In this document: positions 360-6,551 of the stretch, piece after piece
How the letters are laid out: each line of letters opens with the position of its first letter
Position numbering within the stretch: the first letter of the stretch is position 1
DNA from: Pyrinomonadaceae bacterium
GTDB lineage: Bacteria; Acidobacteriota; Blastocatellia; Pyrinomonadales; Pyrinomonadaceae
NCBI GenBank assembly: GCA_025922875.1
Contig: JAICGZ010000023.1
Coordinates: 1 to 34,437 of the forward strand
DNA: 34,437 nucleotides
Direction: 5' to 3'
Translations under genes and position numbers: made by a program
The notes under the pieces: generated by a model
Seen by the model: the letters and a program-made list of their open reading frames with translations, nothing else
Database searches by the model: none
Told to the model about the DNA's origin: nothing

Positions 360-1583
360 TTACTCGTAGCGCAGTGCGTCGATCGGATCGAGCGCCGCGG
401 CTTTGCGTGCGGGATAGTAGCCGAAGAAGATGCCTACCGCGGCGGAGAAGAGAACTGAGCCGACGATAGCCATCATCGAAACCAATGTGGGCCAACCGAG
501 AAACGCTGGTATGGCCAACGAAAGAACAACACCGAGAATGATGCCAATCATTCCACCCGTCACGCTCAAAACAATTGACTCGATCAAAAACTGAGTACGA
601 ACCGCGGATGAGCGCGCGCCGATGGCCATGCGAATACCAATCTCGCGTGTACGCTCAGTGACTGACACGAGCATGATATTCATGATGCCGATGCCGCCCA
701 CCAGCAATGACACGCCTGCAATACAGGCCAACAGAATGGTCATTGTCTTGCTGGTCTCATTCGCCGCCTCGGCCACGTCAGTCATGTTCCGAACGGTAAA
801 ATCGTTTGGCTCATTCGCCGTCAGCTTGTGACGCTGGCGGAGTAAGTCTGTGATCTGCGATTGGGCCGTGTAAGTTGCATCCTGTGAAATCGCGGAGACG
901 AAAGCGATCTGAATGCGGTCTCGTCCCAGCACCTTCTTTTGCACGGTCGTGTACGGTGCAAAAGCAACGTCATCCTGATCGCGGCCTTGCGGATCCTGTC
1001 CTTTCCTCGCCATCACACCAACAACTCGAAACGGCAGGTTCGCCACACGGATGTCCTGGCCGATCGGATCAGTGCCCGGATACAGATTGTCCGCGAGAGT
1101 TTGTCCAATGACGATGACTCGAGCGGCAGTGCGAACTTCGGCGTCAGTAAAAAACGATCCGGTCGCGACCGGCCACTTGCGTATCTCTGGATACTGTTCA
1201 CTGACACCTGTTACTGAAGTGTTCCAGTTCATGTTGCCGGCGACCAGTTGAGATCTGGCATTGACGTTGGGGGTAACCATCGAAACGCTCGGCACTTCGC
1301 GCTTGATCGCGTCGAGATCCTCGACGGTTAACGTGTTGGTGCCGGTGTCGCCCGTGCCGCTGCGCACACCGCCGACGTTCTGCGCACCCGCGCTTACGAA
1401 GAGCAGATTGGTGCCGATACTTTCGATTTGAGCTTGCACGGAGGCCGATGCACCCTGGCCGATGCTCACCATCGCGATCACGGCGGACACGCCGATGATG
1501 ATGCCGAGCATGGTCAACGCTGCACGCATTTTGTTGCGAACAAGTGCGCGAAAGGCGACGCGAATGATCATTAAGAGAGTCAT
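360..1583 (-). CDS. MacB-type ABC transporter permease (FtsX domain)
   Basis: This 407-residue protein is the membrane subunit of a MacAB-like tripartite exporter. The first membrane helix is near residues 20-42 (LTMLGIIIGVSAVIAMVSIG), followed by a periplasmic MacB-core domain of about 230 residues. Three C-terminal helices follow, with the FtsX-type signature VSVTERTREIGIRMAIGA near residue 305. Unlike E. coli MacB, the ATPase is a separate polypeptide, encoded 26 nt upstream. Such permeases act as mechanotransmitters that move peptides, lipoproteins or small toxic molecules from the periplasm outward. It is the last gene of a three-gene operon (adaptor, ATPase, permease). No TolC-like outer-membrane gene is present in the window. 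The substrate cannot be told from the sequence. Confidence 0.93.
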   Translation of the reverse strand: MTLLMIIRVAFRALVRNKMRAALTMLGIIIGVSAVIAMVSIGQGASASVQAQIESIGTNLLFVSAGAQNVGGVRSGTGDTGTNTLTVEDLDAIKREVPSVSMVTPNVNARSQLVAGNMNWNTSVTGVSEQYPEIRKWPVATGSFFTDAEVRTAARVIVIGQTLADNLYPGTDPIGQDIRVANLPFRVVGVMARKGQDPQGRDQDDVAFAPYTTVQKKVLGRDRIQIAFVSAISQDATYTAQSQITDLLRQRHKLTANEPNDFTVRNMTDVAEAANETSKTMTILLACIAGVSLLVGGIGIMNIMLVSVTERTREIGIRMAIGARSSAVRTQFLIESIVLSVTGGMIGIILGVVLSLAIPAFLGWPTLVSMMAIVGSVLFSAAVGIFFGYYPARKAAALDPIDALRYE

Positions 1584-1609: not shown

Positions 1610-2440
1610 TTACTCCTCGTCGTCGTCATCGTCGCTGATGACCGGCAAGTTTTTTAATTCCTCGGCGGCGTTGCGCGGGTTTTCGACCGCGTGGTCCGAC
1701 TTGATCTTGCCGTCCTTGAAAACAATTATTCGATCAGCGTATTCGGCGATGTCATGTTCGTGCGTAACCAGCACGAGCGTGATGCCTCGCTCGCGATTCA
1801 AACGTTGAAAGATCTCCATCACTTCGACTGAAGTGCGCGAATCGAGGTTACCCGTCGGTTCGTCCGCGAGGATCAACGCCGGATGGTTGACGAGTGAACG
1901 CGCGACCGCGACACGCTGCTGTTGTCCCCCCGACAGCTGGTTTGGGTGATTCTGCTCACGGCCGGCGAGGCCGACCGCAGCCAGTGCTTCCATTGCACGC
2001 GCATGCCGCTGGGCCGAGTCAACGCCGAGGTAAAGCATCGGCAGTTCAACGTTCTCCAGCGCCGATGTGCGTGAAAGCAGATTGAAACCCTGGAACACAA
2101 ACCCGATCTTCTGACAACGAATATCGGCGCGTTCGTCTTTCGACATCTGCGAAACGTCTTCACCGTCGAGAATGTAAGTGCCACGCGTCGGACGATCGAG
2201 ACAACCGAGAATGTTCATCGTCGTCGATTTTCCCGAGCCGGAAGCACCCATGATCGCCACAAACTCACCCGGCCTAATCGTCAGGGAGACGCCGCGCAAT
2301 GCGTGAACTTCGACGTCGCCCATCGTGTAGATCTTATGAATGTGGTCCAACTGGATTACGGGTTGAGCTTCGGGCACCGGCATCGCTAACGCGACTCCCG
2401 GTTGTAACTCCTGTGGCTCAACTGCAAACGTAGTAGACAT
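1610..2440 (-). CDS. MacB/LolD-type ABC transporter ATP-binding protein
   Basis: The ATPase subunit has Walker A GASGSGKS (residues 65-72), signature [15 protein letters not shown], and Walker [13 protein letters not shown] followed by the switch His in LVTHEHD. All catalytic motifs look intact. I chose the ATG at 2438-2440, giving 276 residues, because AGGAGA lies a few bases upstream; a longer reading to 2476 would run into an intergenic repeat. The protein has an N-terminal extension of about 28 residues and an unusual acidic tail (SDDDDDEE). It sits between the adaptor gene (71 nt upstream) and the permease gene (26 nt downstream), and should power conformational changes of the permease during export. 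Confidence 0.94.
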
Positions 2441-2464
2441 CGCTTCTCCTGAATCGTCATTAAC

Positions 2465-2502
2465 CACGGATAACACGGATAAAATCCGGATTTACATCCG
2501 TG
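2465..2502. repeat. Imperfect hairpin, CACGGATAACACGGAT family
   Basis: CACGGATAACACGGAT (2465-2480) is followed by complementary ATCCGG and ATCCGTG segments ending at 2502. It is a decayed relative of the 306-351 repeat and lies between the adaptor and ATPase genes, where it may affect mRNA stability or relative expression. Confidence 0.75.
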
Positions 2503-2511
2503 AAATCCCCG

Positions 2512-4194
2512 TTACCGCCTTCCGCCACCCGTCCGCGGCGCGTTACCGAATCCTGGCGGTCGCGACTGCGTGTTTGCGTTCGCGGATGCGCCGGACAATG
2601 TTTGACCCGTGATGACCATATCGCCTTCTCTCAGATCACCATCGACAACCTCAGTCGCGGCGCCATCACTCAGACCAACAGTGATCCTGCGGCGCTCGGG
2701 CTTATTGTCCTGGCCCAACACCCACACAACGCGGATCTGACCCGGCAGGACTGGCGCTGATGCCGGTGCAAACCGGTTCTCACCACTGTCACCCTGAGCG
2801 GCGTTATCGCTCTGCTGCCGCCTGCGTCCCTGACCCTGACCCTGCTGACGCTGACCCTGGCCAGCACCTGCGTTCGTCCGCTGTCTATCCTGCGGCGTAA
2901 AGCGAAGCGCGGAGTTTGGAACCTTCAACACGTTGTTACGCTCGTCAATCGTGATCGTCAGATTAGCCGTCATACCCGGCTTCAATTTCTGTTCGGGATT
3001 GTTGACGTCAATCACCACGTTGTAAGTGACCACGTTCTGCACGTTCACCGGATTGAGCCGCATCTGTTCGATCTGCCCGTCAAACTCCTTGCCCGGAAAC
3101 GCGTCAACTGTAAACCTCACTGACTTCGCCTGCTCCACCAAACCGATGTCGGCCTGGTCGATATTTGCAATCACCTGCATCTGCGTCAGGTCGTTCGCAA
3201 TCGTGAAAAGCGTCGGAGCCGACAGGCTCGCAGCGACAGTCTGACCAACGTTCACGTCGCGCGAAACCACAACGCCATCGATCGGCGAGGTGATGGTCGT
3301 GTGACTCAGATTTACTTGCGCCACACTTAACGAAGCCTGTGCTTGTTGCACTTGAGCCGCAGCCTGCTGCACCTGGGCCTGGGCTTGCTGCACCTGCGCC
3401 TGCGACTGTTCAACTGCCGCTTGCGACTGCGCGATACCTGCGCTCGACGCCGATTGCTCAGTCAGCTTCGCCTGGTTCAGTTGGGCCACCGCCTGGTTGT
3501 AGCGTGCTTCAGCCGTCCGATAAGCGGTCTGTGCGACCTCGTAATCTCTCTGGGCGATAACGCCCGCTTTGAGTAACGACTCCTGTTGTTTCAGGAGACT
3601 AAGCGCGTCGTCCTGTTGCGCCTTCAGCACGGCGACGTTCGCTTCGGCTCCCGACACGCCGGCTTGATTGTTTTGCACTGTCGACCTGGCGGCGAGACCC
3701 TTTGCCTGCGCATCACTTACACCCGCGCGAGCATTAACGACTGCTGCGCGAGCCTGCGCCAAACTGGCCTGTGCGTTTTGGAGGTTTGCACGAGCCTGAT
3801 CCACCTGCGCTTTGGCAGTGGACGGGTCGAGCTGGGCTATGACCTGGCCCTTCTTAACGACTGAATTAAAGTCAGCATACAGTGCGGAAATCGTTCCCGA
3901 AGCCTGACTGCCGACTTGCACCGTCGTTACTGCCTGGAGTGTTCCGGTTGCAGTGACTGTATTACGAAGATTGCCTCGCTCGATGCGGGCGGTCATGTAT
4001 TGCGGAGTGCTCGACTCGCTGTTCCAAAAGTAAAAACCGGCGAACACAATCGCCGCCATAAAACCGCCGCCGAGCAGCAGTTTCTTTTTATTTGCGAGCA
4101 GTCTCGTCCAATATAGTTTTAACCAACCAAGACTGCGGCCGGTTGTTCCAATTCCTGTGACCAGCGGTGGATGTTTAATTGTTTGAGTCGACAT
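2512..4194 (-). CDS. MacA-like periplasmic adaptor (HlyD/RND membrane fusion protein)
   Basis: This 560-residue adaptor should link the MacB-type permease to an outer-membrane channel. A membrane anchor lies at about residues 38-54 (LLLGGGFMAAIVFAGFYFW). It is followed by a lipoyl half-motif (VGSQASGTISALYADFNSVV), a long alanine/glutamine-rich coiled-coil hairpin (about residues 130-310, with repeated QAQVQQA units), the returning lipoyl half (TTITSPIDGVVVSRDVNVGQ) and beta-barrel/membrane-proximal domains. A Gln/Arg/Gly-rich low-complexity insert (GQGQRQQGQGQGRRRQQ) lies near residue 450 and is unusual for MacA. Start: ATG at 4192-4194 with GAGGA 9 nt upstream. A candidate ECF promoter lies only about 20 nt before the start. 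First gene of the operon. Confidence 0.93.
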   Translation of the reverse strand: MSTQTIKHPPLVTGIGTTGRSLGWLKLYWTRLLANKKKLLLGGGFMAAIVFAGFYFWNSESSTPQYMTARIERGNLRNTVTATGTLQAVTTVQVGSQASGTISALYADFNSVVKKGQVIAQLDPSTAKAQVDQARANLQNAQASLAQARAAVVNARAGVSDAQAKGLAARSTVQNNQAGVSGAEANVAVLKAQQDDALSLLKQQESLLKAGVIAQRDYEVAQTAYRTAEARYNQAVAQLNQAKLTEQSASSAGIAQSQAAVEQSQAQVQQAQAQVQQAAAQVQQAQASLSVAQVNLSHTTITSPIDGVVVSRDVNVGQTVAASLSAPTLFTIANDLTQMQVIANIDQADIGLVEQAKSVRFTVDAFPGKEFDGQIEQMRLNPVNVQNVVTYNVVIDVNNPEQKLKPGMTANLTITIDERNNVLKVPNSALRFTPQDRQRTNAGAGQGQRQQGQGQGRRRQQSDNAAQGDSGENRFAPASAPVLPGQIRVVWVLGQDNKPERRRITVGLSDGAATEVVDGDLREGDMVITGQTLSGASANANTQSRPPGFGNAPRTGGGRR

Positions 4195-4215
4195 CTATTA
4201 TTTTCCTCGTTTCCA

Positions 4216-4244
4216 TAGACACCCCGTGTTTGAGATTAGTTACA
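4216..4244 (-). promoter_or_regulatory. Candidate ECF-sigma promoter for the MacAB-type operon
   Basis: Reading the minus strand, TGTAAC (4244-4239) is followed by a 17-nt spacer and TGTCTA (4221-4216), about 20 nt before the adaptor ATG. The same two hexamers with the same spacing face the other way at 4369-4397. TGTAAC resembles the AAC-containing -35 boxes of ECF promoters such as sigma-X. The predicted start of transcription would give a leader of roughly 15 nt that still holds the GAGGA ribosome site. Inferred from sequence only. Confidence 0.5.
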
Positions 4245-4368
4245 ACCATTGTGCCGAATTGCTGATTTCTGATTACTAATTGAGATTTTTAAAACAAAAC
4301 AAACTGGCAATCGACAATTAACAACAAATTGGCAATCACAACCGGAAATCGGCCAATTTCCACAATTC

Positions 4369-4397
4369 TGTAACCATGCACGGCGAAAAGGTGTCTA
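4369..4397 (+). promoter_or_regulatory. Candidate ECF-sigma promoter for the Spy-like/sigma operon
   Basis: TGTAAC (4369-4374), a 17-nt spacer and TGTCTA (4392-4397) precede the Spy-like gene by about 60 nt. The hexamers, spacing and the flanking GG before the -10 box (GGTGTCTAT) match the oppositely facing copy at 4216-4244. The rest of the 4195-4454 divergent region holds AT-rich sequence with ATTGGCAATC-type repeat fragments. Confidence 0.5.
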
Positions 4398-4454
4398 TCG
4401 CTTCGGGACACTCCCCTGGATAAATAAGGAACACTTAGGAGTAAGAACATAGAG

Positions 4455-4979
4455 ATGAACAAACTAGGACGGTTTAAGGTATTGGCAATAGCTACTCTCT
4501 CGGCGATTGCTTTGGCTGCCTCGATTGCCGTTGCACAGTCGGTTACACCCGATCAGGGCAACGCTCAAGGGACACGCACTGAACGGCGTGGCGGTCGAGG
4601 TCAACACAAAGGACATGGCTGGGGAGGAATGCGTCAGGGTCGCATCTTCAAACAGCTTAATTTAACTGAAGACCAGCAGGCTAAGATGAAGCAGATCCGC
4701 GAAAGCTTTGCCGAGCGGAACAAACCCCTGCGCGAACAGCTTCGAGCCAAGCGCCAGGAGTTGCGTCAGGCGAACGAAGGCGGTACGTTCAACGAAGCGC
4801 TGGCTACTCAGAAACTGACGGAAATGGCGAGCCTCCAGGCGAAGCTGATGGGCGAGCGAGCCAGATTGCATCAGGAGATGCTTTCCGTTCTAACTGCTGA
4901 GCAGAAAGCCCAGCTGGAACAGTCGAAAGCGCAGTTCAAAACACGACGTGGCGAAATGCGCAAACACGACAATCAGTAA
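4455..4979 (+). CDS. Spy/CpxP-like periplasmic LTXXQ-motif protein
   Basis: This 174-residue exported protein has an N-terminal signal peptide (residues 1-28, ALAASIAVAQS cleavage area), a Gly/Arg-rich linker, and a helical Spy/CpxP-like domain. Two LTXXQ motifs are visible: LNLTEDQQAKMKQI near residue 74 and LTAEQKAQLEQ near residue 147. Between them lies a highly charged helix rich in Arg, Glu and Gln. Spy and CpxP are cradle-shaped periplasmic proteins that bind unfolded proteins or damp envelope-stress signalling. Here the gene heads a plus-strand group with an ECF sigma factor, an anti-sigma factor and a second LTXXQ protein. The start is ATG 4455; TAGGAG lies about 13 nt upstream. It may be a chaperone, a sensor or both. 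Confidence 0.85.
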   Translation: MNKLGRFKVLAIATLSAIALAASIAVAQSVTPDQGNAQGTRTERRGGRGQHKGHGWGGMRQGRIFKQLNLTEDQQAKMKQIRESFAERNKPLREQLRAKRQELRQANEGGTFNEALATQKLTEMASLQAKLMGERARLHQEMLSVLTAEQKAQLEQSKAQFKTRRGEMRKHDNQ

Positions 4980-4989
4980 GCGTTCCCCC

Positions 4990-5032
4990 ACGGATTTGGC
5001 GGATTCGACGTTATGAAGAGTCCGCCATCCGT
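4990..5032. repeat. Imperfect hairpin between Spy-like and sigma genes
   Basis: ACGGATTTGGCGGA (4990-5003) pairs with TCCGCCATCCGT (5021-5032) apart from a TT bulge. The element follows the Spy-like stop codon directly and could partially terminate transcription or set the ratio between the Spy-like gene and the sigma factor. There is no T-run, so it is not a classical terminator. Confidence 0.6.
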
Positions 5033-5052
5033 TAAGCCGATGAGGACAGCAA

Positions 5053-5664
5053 CTGGCGACGAGTGGGCTCGAACAGGTTTTAGACCTGGACCTGGCGCGT
5101 CAAGCGCAGGCCGGTGATGAGTCTGCCTTCGCGGAGATAGTAAGGCGCTACAGTCCGCGAGTGTTTAGTGTAGCGAGCCGGTTTTTCCGGCAGCGAAGTT
5201 TGGTTGAAGAAGCGGCGCAGGAAGTTTTTTTGAAAGCATATACGCAGCTTGGGAGTTTTGAAGGCCGCGGCTCCATCGAAGGCTGGTTGACGCGAATCGC
5301 TACAAACACTTGTTTGAACATGATTCGCGGAGCCAAACGGCGACCGGAGCTTTCAGTTTCTGATCTCTCGGAAGATGAGCACGGCTGGCTGGAGCAACAA
5401 TCGGGTGATGGAAATGAGCAACGTTCCATCGAGAACAGTTTGGTAGCAACGGATCTCGCGGATCGATTGCTCGCGGTTTTACCTCCGGAGGATCAACAGG
5501 CGTTGTTGATGATCGATGGTGAGGATGCATCGATTAAAGAGGTGGCGGAAGCGACGGGATGGTCGGAGTCGAAGGTTAAAGTAAGGGCATTTCGAGCCCG
5601 ACGTAAACTTCGTGAGGCAATGGAGAAGTTGTTGAGTTATAAAAACGGAAAGCCGGCTGAATGA
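5053..5664 (+). CDS. ECF RNA polymerase sigma factor (sigma-70 family)
   Basis: Region 2 reads DESAFAEIVRRYSPRVFSVA through EEAAQEVFLKAY to IEGWLTRIATNTCLNMIRG. Region 4 reads LPPEDQQALLMI through IKEVAEATGWSESKVKVRAF. These define an ECF-type sigma factor that directs RNA polymerase to alternative promoters. The start is uncertain. The first ATG/GTG/TTG in frame is GTG 5161, but homology to region 2.1 clearly extends upstream to about 5110, so that start would truncate the protein. No ATG, GTG or TTG lies in frame between the stop at 5041-5043 and 5161. I favour CTG 5053, which has GAGG 7 nt upstream and gives 203 residues, normal for the family. The anti-sigma gene follows 14 nt downstream, the usual arrangement. 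It is the natural candidate to recognise the two promoters at 4216-4397. Confidence 0.88.
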   Translation: MATSGLEQVLDLDLARQAQAGDESAFAEIVRRYSPRVFSVASRFFRQRSLVEEAAQEVFLKAYTQLGSFEGRGSIEGWLTRIATNTCLNMIRGAKRRPELSVSDLSEDEHGWLEQQSGDGNEQRSIENSLVATDLADRLLAVLPPEDQQALLMIDGEDASIKEVAEATGWSESKVKVRAFRARRKLREAMEKLLSYKNGKPAE

Positions 5665-5678
5665 GCAGGTGATCAAAG

Positions 5679-6155
5679 ATGAAAGACAAGTGCATCACTG
5701 AGATTTTGGACAACACGCCGATCGCGAACCTTTCAGAGGGCGAACTGCATGAGGTTCGGGTGCACGTGCAAGATTGTGTTTCGTGTCGCGGTGCTTACGA
5801 GGCTGCAAGGATTTCGGCTGTGGTCATCAGGACCCGCGCGCAAACTACGATCGAACCATCTCCCTTTTTCCAGACACGGGTGATGGCCGCGTTGCGGGAA
5901 CAGCAGGCGGTGGAAAGCGTGCCGGCAATGTTGCGGCTTTGGAGGGCGTCGAAAGCGCTCGTCTCTTCCATGGCTGTTACGACCGCAGCGCTTGCAGTAC
6001 TGAGCTTCGTGCTTCCGGCGTCCCCAACGCCAGTGGTGGATCAAACGGCGTCGGCATATTCGGCCGAGTCAGTAATCATGGGCCAGAGTGAAGAGCAAAT
6101 GACATACGATCAGGTGCTGAGCGCAATTTACGCCGATGACGACGAGGCAAGGTAA
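5679..6155 (+). CDS. Membrane-bound zinc-finger anti-sigma factor
   Basis: This 158-residue protein starts MKDKCITEILDN and has an N-terminal ZAS-type zinc motif HVQDCVSC (His-x3-Cys-x2-Cys) near residue 30, the mark of zf-HC2 anti-sigma factors. A single hydrophobic helix at about residues 92-112 (SSMAVTTAALAVLSFVLPAS) would anchor it in the inner membrane with a short periplasmic tail of about 45 residues. The upstream Cys5 may contribute to the zinc site. It should hold the ECF sigma factor of the preceding gene inactive until a signal is received. A ribosome site (AGGTGAT) lies just upstream of the ATG. The next gene starts 3 nt after its stop, so co-translation with the second Spy-like protein is likely. 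Confidence 0.85.
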   Translation: MKDKCITEILDNTPIANLSEGELHEVRVHVQDCVSCRGAYEAARISAVVIRTRAQTTIEPSPFFQTRVMAALREQQAVESVPAMLRLWRASKALVSSMAVTTAALAVLSFVLPASPTPVVDQTASAYSAESVIMGQSEEQMTYDQVLSAIYADDDEAR

Positions 6156-6158
6156 GTC

Positions 6159-6551
6159 ATGAACAATGTTGCTAAAAATAAATGGCAGGTACGGGTAGCG
6201 GCTGCGATCATCTTTGTGCTCGGATTTACCGCGGGCATCCTGGCGCTGAACGTGTATCGAGGCCTGGGTTTCGCACACCGCGGGCCGGGCAATCGAATGG
6301 ATGAACTGGCGCAGCGGTTGAATTTGACTCCCGATCAAAAAGTAAAGGTGCAGGAGATTTTCAGCGACACGCGTGAACAGTTGCGAGCAGTGCGCAGGGA
6401 GTCGGAGCCTAAGGTCGAGGAGATTCGTCGCCAGGCGGATGGACGTTTGCAAACAGTGCTGACGCCTGAGCAGTGGCAACAATTCCAGAAGATTAAAGAG
6501 GAGAGACAGCGGCGCGGTGGTCGTGGTGGTCCAAGAAGGAACGGAAGGTAG
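6159..6551 (+). CDS. Membrane-anchored Spy/CnrX-like LTXXQ protein
   Basis: This 130-residue protein has an N-terminal hydrophobic helix (residues 11-31, VRVAAAIIFVLGFTAGILAL), followed by a periplasmic helical domain with two LTXXQ motifs: LNLTPDQKVKVQEIF and LTPEQWQQFQKI. The C-terminus is Arg/Gly-rich. The fold class covers Spy, CpxP, ZraP and the metal sensor CnrX; no His/Met-rich metal site is obvious. Its position directly after the anti-sigma factor (3-nt gap) suggests a role in sensing, as CnrX does for the CnrY/CnrH pair. This functional role is inferred from gene order. The convergent dehydrogenase gene ends 14 nt beyond its stop. Confidence 0.82.
   Translation: MNNVAKNKWQVRVAAAIIFVLGFTAGILALNVYRGLGFAHRGPGNRMDELAQRLNLTPDQKVKVQEIFSDTREQLRAVRRESEPKVEEIRRQADGRLQTVLTPEQWQQFQKIKEERQRRGGRGGPRRNGR

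Follow-up and report, generated by a model that had tools for sequence, protein, structure and literature searches.

Predicted paired ECF-type promoters conserved between a sigma factor operon and the genes of a MacAB-type exporter or RND-type pump

The window, the whole 34,437-nucleotide stretch of Pyrinomonadaceae DNA analysed here, contains two divergently oriented copies of TGTAAC-N17-TGTCTA between the genes of a predicted MacAB-type exporter and an ECF sigma factor operon. These are very probably twin promoters of the sigma factor encoded at 5053–5664, starting both its own operon and the exporter genes, and the pair would define the core regulon of an ECF clade in the Acidobacteriota. 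The initial annotation had proposed this joint control of operon and exporter, and the proposal is supported by conservation at orthologous loci, by co-occurrence of site and sigma factor, and by the contrasting CGTCT element of sister ECF loci. The positions and the spacing of 17 given there are exact on both strands, and the GG before and AT after the −10 region are present at both sites (GG-TGTCT-AT). No paper on an Acidobacteriota promoter pair or on this ECF clade was found in literature searches judged mostly from search entries. The type of operon is already known; the sigma start codon, a hairpin and the change of pump are what differs. The features of the region are:

360–1583, minus strand: MacB-like permease (MacB_PCD, FtsX)
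1610–2476, minus strand: MacB-like ATPase, a separate ORF
2512–4194, minus strand: macA-like periplasmic adaptor (HlyD_D23; RND_mfp above cut-off, MacA model below cut-off)
4216–4244, minus strand: predicted ECF promoter towards macA (−35 TGTAAC 4244–4239, N17, −10 TGTCTA 4221–4216), 21 nt before the macA ATG
4369–4397, plus strand: predicted ECF promoter towards the sigma operon (−35 TGTAAC, N17, −10 TGTCTA), 57 nt before the ATG of the first gene
4455–4979, plus strand: secreted Spy/CpxP-like LTXXQ protein, first gene of the sigma operon
4990–5032, plus strand: intercistronic hairpin between the LTXXQ and sigma genes (core stem 4997–5006 / 5018–5027)
5043–5046, plus strand: AGGA, likely ribosome-binding site, overlapping the in-frame stop TGA at 5041–5043
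5053–5664, plus strand: ECF sigma factor, proposed CTG start at 5053
5679–6155, plus strand: zinc-type anti-sigma factor (C5, H29, C33, C36), membrane-anchored (one TM stretch, by eye)
6159–6551, plus strand: Spy-like protein with an N-terminal hydrophobic helix, candidate periplasmic sensor

The sigma factor has Sigma70_r2 at residues 29–97 and Sigma70_r4_2 at residues 136–186 of 203 aa, and phmmer matches it to E. coli sigma-E over 7–193. It contains sigma2 and sigma4 only, joined by a short linker, and has an AAC-type −35 element upstream of its own operon, as expected of the ECF group (group IV); passages of PMC8103513 list an AAC −35 box, a co-transcribed anti-sigma factor and positive autoregulation as ECF hallmarks. 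The first gene of the operon passes the LTXXQ profile (54.6 bits; cut-off 24.3), and the last gene falls below the curated cut-offs for both LTXXQ (23.4; cut-off 24.3) and Metal_resist (27.1; cut-off 29.2), although a profile built from its alignment matches Spy chains (best E 4.9e-5). The anti-sigma residues H29, C33 and C36 are invariant in all 29 aligned orthologs; the Hx3Cx2C motif and a position adjacent to the sigma gene place the protein in zinc-type class I (ASDI), these features fit the class as described in parts of PMC7406223, and the alignment profile matches RsiW (E 1.5e-4). Residue 5, a nearly invariant histidine, is a cysteine in the window alone among the 29. The leftwards genes supply homologs of the MacA adaptor, the MacB NBD and the permease, which together form the predicted exporter; all three score below the NCBIfam MacA/MacB equivalog cut-offs and are thus homologs rather than equivalogs of the E. 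coli proteins. No TolC gene was recognised by eye among the ORFs adjoining the exporter genes in the window; the contig starts at window base 1, so a gene further left would be out of view.

The evidence for a conserved pair comes from 29 non-redundant loci: the window, L004–L026, and L092, L094, L095, L096 and L098. L004–L026 are the 23 of 78 search loci with at least 57% identity (L027 was inspected and excluded; L028–L081 fall outside the sample), and 11 of 16 further loci (L083–L098) were treated as duplicates since their matches agreed. The 2.6 kb upstream of each ECF gene, or less at contig ends, contain 54 exact TGTAAC-N17-TGTCT sites and five more with one mismatch, and just one exact match occurs at any other spacing from 13 to 21. 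There are 16 one-mismatch matches at other spacings, nine of them at N21, and these nine are re-matches of N17 sites because each shares its −35 box with one. With N17 and at most one mismatch, the operon-side site is present at all 29 loci (28 of 31 such sites are exact) and the divergent site at 25 of 29; the initial annotation had staked its promoters on conservation in orthologous divergent regions, and this is what is found. No divergent site was found at L022, L094, L095 and L096, the one at L026 reads CGTCT, and the one at L098 is doubtful, with a mismatch in the −35 box. The operon-side −35 box of L094 is TGTGAC, with GAC in place of AAC. Column information sits in TGTAAC(C) and G-TGTCT, and most spacer and flank columns vary; the C of the −10 box is invariant (59/59 sites), and the sixth −10 base is A in 22 of 28 divergent sites and A, T or G in 10, 14 and 7 of the 31 operon-side sites. 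On these alignments TGTAAC-N17-TGTCT is a conserved pair of predicted ECF promoters. Several loci have leader hairpins directly 3′ of the operon-side promoter, as judged by single-sequence folding.

Site presence also tracks the sigma clade. TGTAAC-N16-GTGTCT is present in 15 of 17 genomes with an ortholog of the ECF factor versus 9 of 42 without one, and of the 10 matches in genomes without an ortholog, 9 fall within ORFs of 95 codons or more. All 29 orthologs group in a single clade (support 100/99), which the sister ECFs of CGTCT type do not. Sisters with 37–47% identity have TGTAAC-N17-CGTCT instead (8 sites at 7 of 33 loci, with C at the first −10 base in all eight), and the TGTCT form occurs at none of the 33; as 26 of the 33 are without any pattern match, the T/C contrast in the −10 box rests on seven loci. 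The classical CGT −10 box is absent from the clade, which has TGTCT throughout bar the L026 divergent site; parts of PMC8103513 treat CGT as a hallmark from early work by which the ECF family is no longer defined. A few sigma2 positions separate the ortholog clade from the CGTCT-type sisters; notably, residue 89 is N in 29/29 orthologs and D in 7/7 CGTCT-type and 25/26 other sisters. The numbering against N84 of sigma-E and the roles of the sigma-E residues are those we take to apply to the proteins as aligned here. Specificity through a single residue (N89 or T80) was set aside as a claim, this being correlation only.

The sigma factor at 5053–5664 would itself read both promoters, which agrees with the ECF hallmarks of PMC8103513. 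It is improbable that the sites, as real ECF promoters, are read mainly by another ECF sigma factor of the genome and that this one only co-resides. The host genome has 25 ECF-like matches, sister loci share the −35 box, the L026 divergent site is of the sister CGTCT type, and in G007, a genome without an ortholog, a BON-domain gene is preceded by a promoter-like site, so that another sigma factor may read similar sites; however, the distribution of the sites follows the clade, and the first −10 base of the sister sites is C instead of T. Still less credible is a mirrored operator of a conventional activator or repressor in place of promoters, for which two similar copies in a divergent region could serve as an operator pair. 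The element lacks symmetry, its N17 spacing is kept, and in the listed pairs it is oriented towards the flanking genes, and where an extra gene intervenes (L005, L010, L015) that gene carries a copy of its own; moreover, the opposed −35 boxes lie from 1 nt (L005) to 248 nt (L007) apart, a range ill-suited to a composite operator. In L005 the two −35 boxes abut back to back at 1673(−)/1674(+) (GGTTACATGTAACC), and both promoters could therefore hardly be occupied together.

The initial annotation had also judged agreement of 12 bases at equal spacing unlikely to arise by chance. With N15–19 the exact motif matches twice in the window and in none of 100 dinucleotide shuffles, but when N17 is kept and up to two mismatches are allowed, the window gives 3 matches and the shuffles 1.34 on average, and its excess thus depends on exactness. 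The genome scan it had suggested finds exact TGTAAC-N17-TGTCTA only at these two sites (6.8-Mb genome, 93.5% complete). At this scale the bare letters are not rare, since N15–19 gives 3 matches (the third, N18, lies elsewhere) versus 6 for a reversed-pattern control and TGTAAC-N17-TGTCT gives 5 versus 4, and conservation therefore had to decide. What goes beyond chance, to judge from the sequences, is the pairing within one intergenic region, the same spacing, the orientation to both genes and the conservation in orthologs. Chance agreement, favoured by the control counts, is the least tenable reading of all, refuted by 54 exact orthologous sites at one spacing and by the empty shuffles.

The gene downstream of the divergent promoter is macA in the branch of the window and an RND-type adaptor in L019–L021, L023–L026 and also L098. 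Where the sequence extends far enough, an RND pump ORF is next, of ~1,100 residues in L019, L021, L024 and L025; that of L026 is split and that of L023 truncated. A Pfam scan covers both genes of L021 (ACR_tran E 3e-279) and the adaptor of L026, and the remaining RND calls are by likeness. By tblastn an LTXXQ gene precedes the sigma gene at 18 of 29 loci, with none found in the RND-linked branch or in L008, L009 and L016. Of 59 genomes, 11 encode a MacA with 69% identity or more, and each of these has an ECF ortholog (at most 23 candidates were scored per genome); exact TGTAAC-N17-TGTCT precedes macA in 10/10 family-f1 genomes with an ECF ortholog, macA at that identity and readable upstream DNA, with the site beginning 36–93 nt ahead of the aligned start. 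In G040, G048, G055 and G056 more distant MacA genes have one-mismatch variants, three of CGTCT type; those in G040 and G048 fall just after the inferred MacA start, reflecting either a wrong start or chance. With the same promoter pair before an ABC-type or an RND-type pump, the locus would offer a clear example from nature of a regulatory cassette that persists while its target changes.

The extra gene between macA and the operon in L005, L010 and L015, each with its own site (L010:4307–5050(−), L015:4285–5040(−), L005:1023–1661(−)), encodes a secreted protein with a long alpha-hairpin, the tip of which (DGLVARNEL) resembles membrane-fusion adaptors. Its C-terminal domain has conserved H/D and HIH motifs and is zinc-peptidase-like by eye, with no such Pfam match. 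A model (pLDDT 67, pTM 0.37) places helices at 37–77 and 83–139, and a fold search gives hairpins of EmrA, HlyD and MacA, several at ~2–3 Å over 80–100 columns, and also those of Vipp1/PspA, all at E >0.06. Matches at E 0.001 occur in 50 of 59 genomes, some weak and partial. The protein may be an enzyme of the cell wall docking onto an efflux channel. Between the two promoters of L007 is an open remnant of 52 codons (G005:C229:12832–12981(−)) that shares 74% identity with the end of the hairpin protein; its place between the macA-side and operon-side sites suggests a three-promoter layout reduced to two.

The proposed start of the sigma gene is unusual. Its coordinates in the initial annotation (5053–5664) are right if translation begins at CTG 5053, and they fail with ATG, GTG or TTG starts. 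The frame contains none of these three codons between the stop TGA at 5041–5043 and GTG 5161, a start at which would remove conserved region 2.1; CTG 5053 follows AGGA by 6 nt. The aligned start is CTG at 20 of 31 loci (the 29 plus L248 and L249, with the window, L026 and L249 shifted by hand by 1–2 codons) and TTG at 11, these being the RND-linked branch and L009, and at no locus is it ATG or GTG; the anti-sigma start is ATG at 29/29 loci. Leucine codons elsewhere in the sigma genes are CTG or TTG in 59.5% of cases, and against that background 31/31 is unlikely by chance, though the loci are related. Under a lenient definition, a Shine-Dalgarno-like tetramer ends 4–8 nt upstream of the start in 26 of 31 (at 12–14 nt only in L008, L009 and L017; none in L019 and L020). 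Seven loci (the window, L005, L011, L013, L014, L022, L092) have no ATG, GTG or TTG in the stretch examined; in-frame upstream alternatives exist in, e.g., L006, L007, L010, L012 and L094, and in L017 and L018 a TTG lies two codons past the aligned start. Among sister ECFs, 22 of 33 show an ATG, a possible start codon, in the stretch examined. No CTG or TTG start on a sigma gene was found in literature searches at the level of search entries, and CUG is described as not common as a bacterial start codon in parts of PMC11497404. With such a start, ORF finders based on ATG, GTG and TTG would shorten the sigma factor, as in the ORF list for this window.

A stem of ~10 pairs between the chaperone and sigma genes is visible at many loci. 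In 12 loci, 6 of the 10 pairs change on both sides while keeping pairing (covariation term −1.1 of −17.3 kcal/mol), a figure biased upwards because these loci, with a visible stem, were hand-picked from 19 aligned. The z-score of the 78 nt before the sigma start is below −2 in 13 of the 19 (single-sequence, mononucleotide shuffles) and lies between −1.1 and +1.5 in L006, L013, L014, L016, L022 and L096. The hairpin could serve in partial termination, in processing or in stability.

The proposed mechanism builds on what is directly visible: the sites, their spacing, orientation and conservation, their co-occurrence with the sigma clade and their retention under another type of pump. An envelope signal is probably sensed via the membrane-anchored Spy-like protein and the zinc-type anti-sigma factor, and the freed sigma factor would start transcription both ways. 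The rightward transcript would provide the Spy-like chaperone, more sigma factor, anti-sigma factor and sensor, and the leftward transcript the MacAB-type exporter. Hairpin and weak start would leave the chaperone abundant and the sigma factor scarce, and the CTG or TTG start, plus the hairpin at many loci, probably holds sigma synthesis below that of the anti-sigma factor, such that the positive loop shuts off. According to modelling (PMC5207722), the relative synthesis of sigma and anti-sigma factors shapes such loops. We place at about even chances a broader reading, in which the conserved CUG/UUG start (AUG for the anti-sigma factor), often behind a covarying hairpin, is the governor that sets this ratio, and one sigma factor, whose promoters carry T in place of C as the first base of the −10 box, thereby serves as a control cassette that can be transferred between unrelated efflux pumps and that in some genomes extends to enzymes of the cell wall with hairpins like those of pumps.

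Autoregulated ECF operons are a textbook kind, with SigW-RsiW, RpoE-RseA and ChrR as examples. The window system shares with these the sigma2-sigma4 architecture, the AAC −35 box, the C in the −10 box and an adjacent Hx3Cx2C anti-sigma factor, and its anti-sigma profile matches RsiW and its sigma factor both sigma-E and SigW. It differs in TGTCT in place of CGT, in the non-ATG sigma start, and in the Spy-like proteins, one before the sigma gene (the 18 loci above) and another after the anti-sigma gene. CnrYXH of Cupriavidus metallidurans has a sigma factor, a membrane anti-sigma factor and a membrane-anchored periplasmic small helical protein near an efflux pump, and the window has the same layout adjoining its pump, but its small protein is without conserved His or Cys and its profile matches Spy, not CnrX. 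A CnrX-type metal sensor was rejected, as no His or Cys falls in columns conserved at 90% or more (28 of 29 sequences, L009 omitted); no CnrX chain is among 18 profile matches up to E 1. The sensor model is of middling confidence (pLDDT 73, pTM 0.52) and has no fold match below E 0.001, with CnrX chains only at E ≥1.7, so that the fold speaks neither for nor against. As in MacAB-TolC there is an adaptor with MacB-type ATPase and permease homologs, here with ATPase and permease in separate ORFs. In Listeria a non-canonical start codon of RsbW shifts the balance of sigma factor and antagonist (PMC13068326); in that case the change was a mutation of the anti-sigma gene that appeared under selection, whereas the weak start described here belongs to the sigma gene and is conserved.

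A wide regulon was rejected: outside the locus the 12-base pattern is near background, with 9 matches in the 17 genomes with the ECF factor (92 Mb) versus 10 in the 42 others (206 Mb). Matches outside ORFs number 5 of 9 versus 1 of 10 at an 80-codon threshold (p 0.057) and 7 of 9 versus 1 of 10 at 95 codons (p 0.0055), p values that are generous because the 95-codon threshold was picked post hoc and several of the nine are orthologous to each other. One match in the genome of the window (G000:C129:11780) lies ~200 nt before a TolC-family gene (OEP E 7e-37), with the same in G004; the site is present in only 2 of 11 genomes with the ECF factor and readable upstream DNA (12 are listed, G012 being left out with 12 nt upstream) and absent from the aligned G010 and G015 regions, which points weakly to TolC as a lineage-specific member.

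At a small secreted-protein locus an exact site occurs in G000, G004 and G010, where conservation starts sharply at TGTAACC and runs into a long hairpin with a T run. In L114:1501–1620 and its equivalents in L131 and L130, the exact site is followed by a long inverted repeat and T run before the genes for the small secreted proteins, and this repeat may be an attenuator or a short RNA. An exact site also lies 17 nt before the start of an SLT lytic transglycosylase (E 3e-27) in L135:1501–2358 (G017 contig 15, separate from the contig of the sigma locus), which by eye has a similar coiled-coil tip motif.
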